Below, piece by piece: positions 9,346 to 11,401 of a DNA stretch of 64,000 nt. The position numbers and the translations under genes are program-made. The notes beneath the pieces were generated by a model that saw nothing but the letters and a program-made list of their open reading frames with translations, did no database searches and was not told the origin of the DNA. How positions within the stretch are numbered: position 1 is the first letter of the stretch; the number at the start of each line of letters is the position of its first letter. This stretch comes from Saccharothrix sp. HUAS TT1 (GTDB lineage Bacteria; Actinomycetota; Actinomycetes; Mycobacteriales; Pseudonocardiaceae), in assembly GCF_040744945.1 (NCBI RefSeq), contig NZ_CP160453.1, forward strand, positions 3,906,001 through 3,970,000, read 5' to 3'.

Positions 9346-9528
9346 ATGGGGACCGACGACAAGGTCAGCAACAAGGCCGAAGAGCTCAAGGGCAAGGCCA
9401 AGGAAGCGGTCGGCGACGCCACCGACAACGAGCAGTGGCAGGCCGAGGGCCGCGCCGAGCAGGCCAAGGGCTCGCTCAAGCAGGCGGGGGAGAAGGTCAA
9501 GGACGCCTTCCGTGGCGACGACCGGTAG
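9346..9528 (+). CDS. CsbD-family general stress protein
   Basis: 60-residue, highly charged Lys/Glu/Ala-rich protein with the CsbD pattern NKAEELKGKAKEAVGDATDN then a Trp-containing second half (QWQAEGRAEQAKG). CsbD proteins are small hydrophilic stress proteins, often under general stress sigma factors; their biochemical role is unknown. The ATG at 9346 follows GAGAGGA about 9 nt upstream; the longer in-frame start at 9262 would overlap the divergent VOC gene and was rejected. The 3' end overlaps udgX by 17 bp, linking a stress protein with a DNA-repair gene. Confidence 0.88.
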   Translation: MGTDDKVSNKAEELKGKAKEAVGDATDNEQWQAEGRAEQAKGSLKQAGEKVKDAFRGDDR

Positions 9529-10180
9529 GACGGCCGCCAAGACCGCCAAGCAGACGTCGAGCGCCGCCGAGTTCGTGCCCGAGGGGGCCGACTTGGCGGC
9601 GCTCCGCCGTGCTGCCGCCGGTTGCCGGGGCTGCGAGCTGTACGAGCCCGCCACGCAGGTGGTGTTCGGTCAGGGACCGGAGGCCGCCCGCCTGGTGCTG
9701 GTCGGCGAGCAGCCGGGCGACGTCGAGGACCGGCAGGGCGAGCCGTTCGTCGGGCCTGCCGGCCGGTTGCTGGACAAGGCGCTGGAGGAGGCCGACCTGG
9801 CCCGTGAGGGCGTCTACCTGACCAACGCGGTCAAGCACTTCAAGTTCGTGCCCGCCGAGCGCGGGAAGCGGCGCGTCCACAAGTCGCCGACGCGCGGCGA
9901 GGTCGTCGCCTGCCTGCCGTGGCTGGAGGCGGAACTGGCCCGGGTGCGGCCCGCGCTGGTGGTGTGCCTGGGCGCGACGGCGGCCAAGGCCGTGCTGGGC
10001 ACGTCGTTCAAGGTCACCGAGCGGCGCGGGCAGGTCGAGCGGGTCGGGGACCACGACGTGATCGCGACCGTGCACCCGTCGGCGGTGCTGCGCGCGCCCG
10101 ACCGCGACGAGGCGTACCGGGGCTTCCTGGCCGACCTGAAGGCCGTGCGCGCCCACTTCGACTCGCTGAGCGCTCGCTGA
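9512..10180 (+). CDS. udgX: UdgX-type uracil-DNA glycosylase
   Basis: UdgX is a 4Fe-4S uracil-DNA glycosylase of the family IV/V group that, in Mycobacterium smegmatis, ends with a covalent bond between a His of the KRRIH loop and the abasic site. Visible here: Cys38 and Cys41 (CRGC) plus two later Cys (ACLPW, VVCLG) for the cluster, GEQPGD at residues 65-70 for motif A, and KRRVH with His123 at residues 119-123, a conservative variant of KRRIH. HPSAVLR closes the active site. The GTG start at 9512 overlaps the csbD stop. Assignment to UdgX rather than ordinary family IV UDG rests on the KRRVH loop. Confidence 0.92.
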   Translation: MATTGRTAAKTAKQTSSAAEFVPEGADLAALRRAAAGCRGCELYEPATQVVFGQGPEAARLVLVGEQPGDVEDRQGEPFVGPAGRLLDKALEEADLAREGVYLTNAVKHFKFVPAERGKRRVHKSPTRGEVVACLPWLEAELARVRPALVVCLGATAAKAVLGTSFKVTERRGQVERVGDHDVIATVHPSAVLRAPDRDEAYRGFLADLKAVRAHFDSLSAR

Positions 10181-10189
10181 CCACCTGCC

Positions 10190-10378
10190 GAGGGTGTGAA
10201 ACGGCCCCCGGACCGCTTCCCGCACCAGGTGCGGGCCGAGCTGGACTGGGCTCGGGGTCACGGGGGCCGGGTGGCTGCCTGGGATTCGCCCAGACCACCT
10301 GAAGGTCGGTCCTAGCGGACAGCCACCTCACGACGAGTCCTATAGCTATTCAACTTCGGACCACCTCCTTCCTCGTGT
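10190..10378 (-). ncRNA. Candidate structured RNA (two predicted three-way junctions)
   Basis: The intergenic strip between udgX and the SDR gene is full of nested perfect pairings. Module A: an 8-bp closing stem (10270-10277 with 10320-10327) holds a hairpin 10279-10283/10289-10293 and another 10294-10300/10303-10310 with one bulge. Module B: a 9-bp closing stem (10202-10210 with 10261-10269) holds hairpins 10219-10225/10229-10235 and 10236-10241/10250-10255. The minus strand is preferred because a promoter-like pair lies at 10386-10414 and module B would then be the terminator end, followed by TTTCAC. The family is not recognised. Structure is read directly; transcription and strand are inference. 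Confidence 0.6.
10312..10353 (-). CDS. Possible 13-codon leader or micro-ORF
   Basis: On the minus strand AAGGAGGTGGTCC (10358-10370) can pair with the 16S 3' end over 13 positions with one G-U, and 9 nt from its core a TTG opens MNSYRTRREVAVR followed by TAG. The stop lies between the closing strand of module A and its internal hairpins, so translation would run through one side of the three-way junction. It could be a regulatory leader peptide, a real microprotein, or chance. No peptide family is recognised. There is no downstream gene on this strand for a classic attenuator. Confidence 0.3.
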   Translation of the reverse strand: MNSYRTRREVAVR

Positions 10379-10385
10379 ACCGCGA

Positions 10386-10414
10386 ACGCTATGCGAGCCC
10401 CGACGGGCTCGCAA
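10386..10414 (-). promoter_or_regulatory. Promoter with embedded palindrome for the minus-strand element
   Basis: Read on the minus strand: TTGCGA (10409-10414), exactly 17 bp, then TAGCGT (10386-10391), which fits the actinobacterial TANNNT -10. Between and touching the two boxes is a perfect 8-bp-arm palindrome, GCGAGCCC-CGAC-GGGCTCGC (10393-10412), placed where a repressor would block RNA polymerase. Predicted transcription start is near 10378, a few bases before the long Shine-Dalgarno. Confidence 0.45.
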
Positions 10415-10521
10415 CGGCTTTTCCTGCTCGATCCGGCTCCGCGTCCGCCCCGGTCGGCGGCGGTAGCGCCGGGTCTGATTCCCGCCGGACCGGAATCGCC
10501 TGGTGGCGCAGGATTCCCGGC

Positions 10522-11250
10522 ATGGAACTCGAAGGCAGGGTCGCCCTGGTCACCGGCGGCAGCAGGGGCATCGGGGCGGCGGTCGCGGTGCGGTTGGCGG
10601 AGGCGGGCGCGGACGTCGCGATCACGTGCCGGAACGGTCCGGGCGACGTGGTCGAGCGGATCGAGGCGCTGGGGCGGCGGGCGGTGGCGGTCCGGGCGGA
10701 CAGCGGTGACGCGGACGCGGTGGTGGCGGCGGTCGAGGAGGCCGTGGCGGTGCTGGGGCGGCTGGACGTGCTGGTGAACAACGCGGGTGAGTTCATCGTC
10801 GGGCCGGTGGCGGAGCTGGGGGTGGCGGAGTTCGACCGGACGTTCGACGTGAACGTGCGGGCGGCGTTCGTGGCGGTGAAGGCGGCGCTGCCGCACCTCG
10901 GCGCCGGCGGGCGGGTGATCGGGATCGGCAGCAACGTGGCGTCGCGGGCGGTGTTCCCGGGGTTCTCGCTGTACTCGGCGAGCAAGGCGGCGCTGGTGGG
11001 GCTGACGAAGGCGTTGGCGCGCGAGCTGGGGCCGCGGGGGATCACGGTGAACCTGGTGCACCCCGGTGCGACCGACACCGACTCGAACCCGGCGGACGGC
11101 CCGGCGGCCGACGTCATCCGCGGGTTCACCGCGCTCGGCCGGTACGCCGTGCCGGCGGAGGTGGCCGCCGCCGTCGCGTTCCTCGCCTCCGACGAGGCCC
11201 GCTACGTGACCGGCGCCCAACTGCACGTCGACGGCGGCTTCACCGCCTGA
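10522..11250 (+). CDS. Short-chain dehydrogenase/reductase (SDR)
   Basis: NAD(P)-dependent oxidoreductase of the classical SDR type, 242 residues. TGGSRGIG near residues 12-19 is the dinucleotide-binding turn, NNAG the structural motif, and Ser..YSASK (Tyr/Lys) the catalytic set; HVDGG near the C-terminus is typical of 3-ketoacyl-ACP reductase-like members. The ATG at 10522 matches where the Rossmann fold begins; the in-frame GTG at 10375 would add 49 residues of low-complexity sequence through the structured element. Substrate unknown. Downstream lies a palindromic repeat block separating it from the convergent LPMO gene. Confidence 0.9.
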   Translation: MELEGRVALVTGGSRGIGAAVAVRLAEAGADVAITCRNGPGDVVERIEALGRRAVAVRADSGDADAVVAAVEEAVAVLGRLDVLVNNAGEFIVGPVAELGVAEFDRTFDVNVRAAFVAVKAALPHLGAGGRVIGIGSNVASRAVFPGFSLYSASKAALVGLTKALARELGPRGITVNLVHPGATDTDSNPADGPAADVIRGFTALGRYAVPAEVAAAVAFLASDEARYVTGAQLHVDGGFTA

Positions 11251-11255
11251 CCCCC

Positions 11256-11401
11256 GCGAGAGTCCAACGTCCACGCCGCGAGAGTCCAACGTCCAGCGCA
11301 CCTGAGTTCAACGCTCAGGGCCGGAGCGGGCGCGCCTGAGCGTTGAACTCGGGGTGCGTGAGCGTTGGACTCTCGCGGGCTGGGGGTTGGACTCTCGCGG
11401 T
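11256..11401. repeat. 22-bp-period palindromic repeat cluster between convergent genes
   Basis: Two direct copies of GCGAGAGTCCAACGTCCA start at 11256 and 11278 (period 22). A hairpin unit CCTGAGTTCAACGCTCAGG follows at 11301-11319, then its inverted partner (11335-11350), then two inverted copies of the first unit (about 11362-11377 and 11385-11399). The array can fold into one long stem in either strand. It fills the gap between the SDR gene and the convergent LPMO gene, so a bidirectional terminator role is likely. A related array lies at 42186-42285. Confidence 0.8.

Follow-up and report, generated by a model that had tools for sequence, protein, structure and literature searches.

What kind of RNA, if any, is encoded by the densely paired strip between a uracil-DNA glycosylase gene (udgX) and a short-chain dehydrogenase gene in Saccharothrix sp. 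HUAS TT1? The window, by which we mean the whole stretch of 64,000 nucleotides that was analysed, was read in an earlier note as carrying at this place an RNA of an unrecognised class, and an Rfam search was named there as a refuting check. That search (Rfam 15) gave a match, at 104.1 bits against a cut-off of 45, to RF02471 (Ms_IGR-5, described as "Actinobacteria sRNA"), with an alignment that spans the full model (1-184). The RNA is thus not unrecognised, and the locus adds one more member to a family already catalogued. RF02471 is the sole family that reaches its cut-off in the whole window, where the same search found no above-cut-off match to tmRNA (RF00023) or to 6S RNA (presumably accession RF00013), and it is matched only once in the whole 8.7 Mb host genome. 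The window RNA resembles the family over its full length and has the same terminal hairpin and 5' motif, but it differs from the Rfam consensus line, which lacks both the helix that we call P1 and a pseudoknot, and which pairs part of the ribosome-binding site. The Ms_IGR-5 family is not known to us to have an assigned function.

Ms_IGR-5 RNA is often absent from relatives. It was present in 50 of 60 related genomes (the host counted among the 60), that is, by kinship label, in 24/24 of the same genus, 6/11 others of the family and 20/24 others of the order; a class-level sample searched with stricter filters had it in 249 of 394 genomes, with 145 lacking a match, and a phylum-level sample in 70 of 396, of which 35 were above the cut-off. 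A wider model of our own (R1), built from 33 sequences of an alignment, A1, which match it by construction, was found in 51 of 149 genomes of the phylum, and in none of the 10 relatives lacking RF02471, a run made without a positive control. No match was found in phages, and the single one in plasmids is weak and belongs to a Nocardia farcinica record of 2.66 Mb.

For the comparisons below we used mainly a set of 100 loci out of 174, which leaves out near-identical loci of the same genus and longer duplicates (L031-L050) and also omits some mycobacterial, streptomycete and other loci (for example L052, L053, L064, L156-L162, L167 and L169-L174); L091 and L115 are one and the same locus, and collapsing identical elements reduces the 100 rows to 94 for the pseudoknot count and to 95 for the frame count. 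A second set came from a DNA pattern that asks for no reading frame. This pattern gave at least 120 stretches, with 80 loci among the matches listed, which include Streptomyces, Mycobacterium, Nocardioides, Amycolatopsis and Acidimicrobiia; in three of the 80 the RNA is one already present in the first set, and one locus (L216) was discarded as a chance match and non-member. The RNA pattern also occurs on contigs labelled as lying outside the phylum, namely Acidobacteriota (L241), Zixibacteria (L232) and Spirochaetia (L253). These labels may be binning errors; for L241 mis-binning is likely, since its frame resembles those of Acidimicrobiia.

Table 1. Positions, in window coordinates, of the features discussed in the text
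Feature	Positions	Strand	Remarks
Ms_IGR-5 RNA (RF02471)	10196..10378	-	183 nt, full model length; ends derived from the model
-35 box TTGCGA	10409..10414	-	TTG in this region in 64/100 relatives, against 72/1000 upstream control windows
-10 box TAGCGT	10386..10391	-	17 nt from the -35 box; TAnnnT in 89/100 relatives, against 3/1000 controls
A-rich stretch upstream of the -35 box	10418..10424	-	UP-element-like
Extended Shine-Dalgarno	10358..10373	-	predicted to pair with the 16S rRNA 3' end, 17 contiguous bases including one more base, G-U counted
Reading frame TTG...TAG, 13 codons	10312..10353	-	M-N-S-Y-R-T-R-R-E-V-A-V-R
Pseudoknot 5' strand GGACU	10336..10340	-	inside codons 5-6 of the frame
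Pseudoknot 3' strand AGUCC	10243..10247	-	apical loop under P3
Helix P1, 5' strand	10318..10327	-	last codons of the frame; covariation in relatives
Helix P1, 3' strand	10270..10279	-	covariation in relatives
Terminal hairpin P3, 5' strand	10261..10269	-	covariation in relatives
Terminal hairpin P3, 3' strand	10202..10210	-	covariation in relatives
udgX, uracil-DNA glycosylase superfamily gene, convergent flank	9512..10180	+	PF03167, E 1.7e-39; outside the RNA
Short-chain dehydrogenase gene, divergent flank	10522..11250	+	PF13561, E 7.4e-60; outside the RNA

The promoter-like pair that had been pointed out upstream on the minus strand is there and is conserved in relatives, the -35 and -10 boxes occurring together in 61 of 100 relatives and in none of 1000 control windows further upstream. 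The A-rich stretch before them, which we take to be UP-element-like, has its counterpart in the relatives, where A is the commonest base at positions -44 to -41 (50, 67, 77 and 54 of 100). A stricter consensus promoter scan of the window found no promoter here.

The impression that pairing is far above chance proved right as well: with -100.4 kcal/mol, the minus-strand fold of 10190-10378 lies well below the mean of -79.1 for shuffled sequences (z -4.38, none of 200 shuffles as stable), and the plus strand folds more weakly (z -3.01). P1, which joins the last codons of the frame described below to a GGCAGYCACC-like segment, and P3 make up the minimum-energy fold of the window RNA (-98.5 kcal/mol), with a pair probability of about 0.67 for P1; when six extra bases are added at the 3' end, a fold closing the ribosome-binding site narrowly wins, with -100.4 kcal/mol. 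Of the two modules of nested hairpins described earlier, the second stands, P3 closing over two hairpins, and the first is rather a pair of nearly equal folds, one that closes the ribosome-binding site and one that forms P1. The second module had also been said to end like a terminator; a hairpin is indeed present there, but a scan of the window found no site with a T run.

Compensatory base changes in relatives, which the earlier note had named as a check, are present for both P1 and P3. In a structure-fitted alignment (A2), 23 of 26 pairs of the two helices have changed on both sides and 93.8% of cells are paired, falling to 45.3% or less with a shifted partner; in the structure-free MAFFT alignment (A1) the values are 18 of 30 pairs, 93.8% and at most 46.3%; none of 500 shuffles was as high in either case, in tests that are inflated by sequence kinship and that took the P1 and P3 columns from alignment members. 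The weakest pairs in A2 are the innermost of P1, which fails in 37 of 99 rows, and a single apical pair, which fails in 30.

The strongest feature of the RNA is its potential to pair with the 3' end of 16S rRNA (in the host, GGCTGGATCACCTCCTTTCT), which extends over at least 15 contiguous bases in 99 of 100 relatives, G-U pairs included. Random control windows are a poor guide here, being taken from the RNA-bearing loci themselves, and their 33 long matches in 20000 reflect an unclean background; the better control is the genome-wide count of a 14-base pairing pattern, which has 6 copies in 8.7 Mb, namely the four 16S complements, this RNA and one elsewhere. In the second fold of nearly equal energy, the ribosome-binding site of the window RNA pairs instead with a complementary segment that follows directly on the stop codon of the frame. 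We do not claim such self-closure as a trait of the family, the 100 relatives having a mean of 8.7 contiguous pairs against 7.6 in shuffles, a slight excess.

A pairing of this length would suit an untranslated mimic of a ribosome-binding site, which uses the 3' end of 16S rRNA to retain 30S subunits and in which any reading frame is a by-product of structural constraint. We consider this reading unlikely, although it is the strongest of the rivals, whose likelihood falls from this 30S decoy through a micropeptide mRNA and an attenuator down to a homologue of Ms1. What bears on it is the frame. In the first 44 distinct 5' ends (56 loci) each sequence has a frame of 12-13 codons whose start lies 9-12 nt behind GGAGG, and overall the frames have 12-15 codons (13 in the window's genus, 13 to 15 in relatives outside the class). 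Among 95 distinct sequences the in-frame start is canonical in 85 (ATG 32, GTG 11, TTG 42) and near-cognate in the other 10 (CTG 5, ATT 2, ATC 2, ACG 1), all of these outside the window's class, so that a canonical start is not strictly needed in those ten. Such frequent weak starts speak for a decoy. Against it, NTG is nevertheless found in 90 of the 95 (with T in 42, A in 32, G in 11 and C in 5, the last all from outside the class), and the stop falls at the same codon, the fifth after GAG, in 94 of 95 (at the sixth in the remaining one), where TAG (81), TGA (9) and TAA (4) replace each other. Structure alone does not predict such a swap at a fixed place, and the control frames have the start and stop pattern in only 0/95 and 12/95. 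Lengths from start to GAG vary among relatives by whole codons. In the second set, obtained without asking for a frame, 72 of the 80 loci have canonical starts and 7 have CTG, the last being the non-member.

Two observations concern the more distant members. In loci labelled Acidimicrobiia (L197, L221, L234, L249, L251) the frame often starts with CTG, and some of the loci L095-L114, from outside the window's class, start with ATT, ATC or ACG behind the same strong ribosome-binding site.

Given a conserved short frame behind a very strong ribosome-binding site, the description of a free-standing RNA of about 190 nt, taken as non-coding, is incomplete: the minus strand, a length of about 185 nt, a promoter of its own and a position apart from the neighbours all stand, but the frame had been missed.

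If the frame is there to be translated, is the peptide the product? A tiny mRNA for a peptide of 12-15 residues would explain why the frame is conserved and why three of its codons hardly vary, Thr standing at codon 6 in 69, Glu at codon 8 in 70 and Val at codon 9 in 69 of 70 aligned frames of 12 codons. We think this rather improbable. In codons 2-4, which are 68% A+T, 11 of 50 distinct single changes are synonymous against 9.5 expected at random (counted in 161 distinct 12-codon frames that were preselected for a canonical start and a stop), changes that disregard the amino acid. Moreover, the conserved codons coincide with the pseudoknot and with P1, and codon 5 may encode Arg, Trp or Gly but always keeps its GG; part of the conservation of the frame is RNA structure. 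By this comparison codons 2-4 appear free of amino-acid selection, start, frame and stop being kept while residues drift, and it therefore seems to be translation, and not the peptide, that is conserved. Two more specific ideas about the peptide were tried and dropped. The macrolide-arrest motif R-x-R is not a general trait, codon 7 being Cys in 13 of the 70 aligned frames, and a hydrophobic type I toxin is ruled out by the polar character of the peptide.

The choice of stop codon deserves a remark of its own. TAG ends 144 of the 161 distinct 12-codon frames of the family, against a background in which the stops of 992 long frames in the loci are TGA 727, TAG 204 and TAA 61, and those of 36 long frames in the window TGA 29 and TAG 7. 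This preference may be a constraint at the RNA level.

The frame is also tied to the 3' half of the RNA by a putative pseudoknot. GGAC in the frame and GUCC in the columns of the apical loop are found together in 95 of 100 rows; in two others (L104, L114) GUCC lies just outside the expected loop columns, and in the remaining three the strand and the loop have changed together (L126, GGAU/AUCC; L074, CGAC/GUCG; L076, CGAU/GUCG, with one G-U). Going outward, the adjoining bases form a Watson-Crick pair in 62/94 sequences, where shuffles give 24.2 (none of 20000 as high); on the opposite flank the excess is smaller (34/94 against 21.4). For these counts the core letters were assigned manually in L126, L074 and L076, and a sequence with several GUCC was represented by that of its best local hairpin. 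In A1 no two-sided change is seen at the four pseudoknot columns, L126 being absent from that alignment and L074 and L076 out of register.

A short frame lying within alternative folds is the anatomy of a leader-peptide attenuator, and one might ask whether the RNA regulates a gene behind it on the same strand, as the orientation would allow in 37 of the 96 loci with a called gene. We regard this as very improbable. In the window the next gene, udgX, is convergent, in agreement with the earlier remark that no open gene follows on that strand, which contradicts an attenuator at this locus. Among the 100 loci, by codon-bias gene calls, the downstream gene is on the other strand in 59 and uncalled in 4, and the 37 on the same strand have no common family, their largest shared cluster comprising 7. 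A conserved neighbour gene family was rejected more generally, as the largest neighbour clusters overall contain 14 and 11 of the 100 loci. With udgX convergent and no widely shared neighbour, we read the RNA as a free-standing unit. Beyond the dehydrogenase gene, at 11250-11400 of the window, lies an intergenic repeat that is scattered through the genome, the 14-mer GCGAGAGTCCAACG, many of whose copies stand next to one another in inverted orientation; it has 56 copies in the genome (27 plus, 29 minus; the reversed control has 0) and looks like a small palindromic repeat family.

Least credible of all is homology with Ms1, a 6S-like RNA whose partner is the core of RNA polymerase: both are actinobacterial sRNAs, and PMC9130861, in the part available, predicts Ms1 in Saccharothrix and in many further Pseudonocardiaceae, but the accessible text of PMC10454040 lists IGR-5 apart from Ms1 among the RNAs of M. 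smegmatis, and Ms1 is about 300 nt long and is linked to the HAD hydrolase gene MSMEG_6173, a kind of linkage seen in most species (PMC9130861 and PMC4191392, as far as these are available), whereas the homologue L002 has as its neighbours the genes for an aminotransferase class IV and a heme-binding barrel protein. The two genes flanking the window RNA, for a UDG-superfamily protein and a short-chain dehydrogenase, likewise lack the HAD hydrolase linkage. Ms1 and 6S RNA are thus comparable as free-standing structured actinobacterial sRNAs and differ in gene, length and context, and we reject the identity of Ms_IGR-5 with Ms1, which the available parts of PMC10454040 and PMC4191392 keep apart.

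The reading that we prefer, and to which we would give an even chance, is that of a free-standing RNA of about 183 nt with its own promoter, which would act as a ribosome-gated switch through its 16S pairing, short frame, pseudoknot and P1. The promoter, the 16S pairing, the start, frame and stop, P1, P3 and the pseudoknot are each supported by comparison of homologous sequences; the switch and its output we infer from the positions of these elements. The extended pairing with 16S rRNA would capture a 30S subunit. The initiating ribosome would then cover the pseudoknot strand, which lies 13-16 nt from the start (the cover of a ribosome reaches about 15 nt beyond the P site on the downstream side), and the terminating ribosome would cover P1 and free the pseudoknot, so that each stage of translation would favour a different fold. 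As no amino acids are conserved at codons 2-4, translation itself would be the signal, either through the availability of initiating ribosomes or through their passage to the stop codon, and the output would lie at the RNA level; candidates are the stability of the RNA, the exposure of a trans-acting segment, or the temporary holding of 30S subunits.

Such a switch would have partial parallels. Dual-function sRNAs such as SgrS and RNAIII are also small RNAs with a short translated frame (predicted, in our case), but they have a functional peptide and known base-pairing targets, whereas codons 2-4 of the window RNA appear to be free of amino-acid selection. Leader-peptide attenuators share with it the short frame placed in alternative folds and the apparent importance of translation rather than of the peptide; they differ in that the window RNA has its own promoter, a convergent gene behind it and no widely shared neighbour. 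The likeness to tmRNA is limited to a short frame embedded in a pseudoknotted RNA; here a strong ribosome-binding site precedes the frame, and RF00023 is not matched.

What has been published on the family is thin, and the subscription papers are mostly outside the literature covered; the portions available mention neither a reading frame nor a pseudoknot in Ms_IGR-5. They do indicate that it is transcribed: IGR-5 of M. smegmatis overlaps ncMSMEG15794c (PMC10454040, accessible part), the S. lividans RNA has RNA-seq support (PMC8079986, likewise in part) and that of S. avermitilis is a transcription unit with mapped start and end (PMC8780764, in the text available). According to the available portion of PMC4974804, MS_IGR-5 of M. 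abscessus and M. smegmatis carries significant ribosome footprints, as classical ncRNAs do in the same report; footprints on homologues are no proof of productive translation.

For the family as a whole we would tentatively go one step further, while regarding this as doubtful: Ms_IGR-5 could be a widespread actinobacterial ribosome sensor, whose short frame is there to be translated and not to make a peptide, and which gives a readout of the state of translation or else sequesters 30S subunits once growth has stopped. With a near-perfect 16S antisense followed by an often weak start (TTG being the commonest, and CTG frequent in Acidimicrobiia), its occupancy would depend on free, initiation-competent 30S subunits, the initiating ribosome breaking the pseudoknot and the terminating one breaking P1. 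The label "non-coding sRNA" no longer seems to fit well. If the proposal is true, a family of supposedly non-coding sRNAs would have to be re-read as organised around a translation event with an unconserved peptide; the ribosome-gated model would account for the footprints published for Ms_IGR-5, and the re-reading would make the family a testable model of ribosome-gated RNA.
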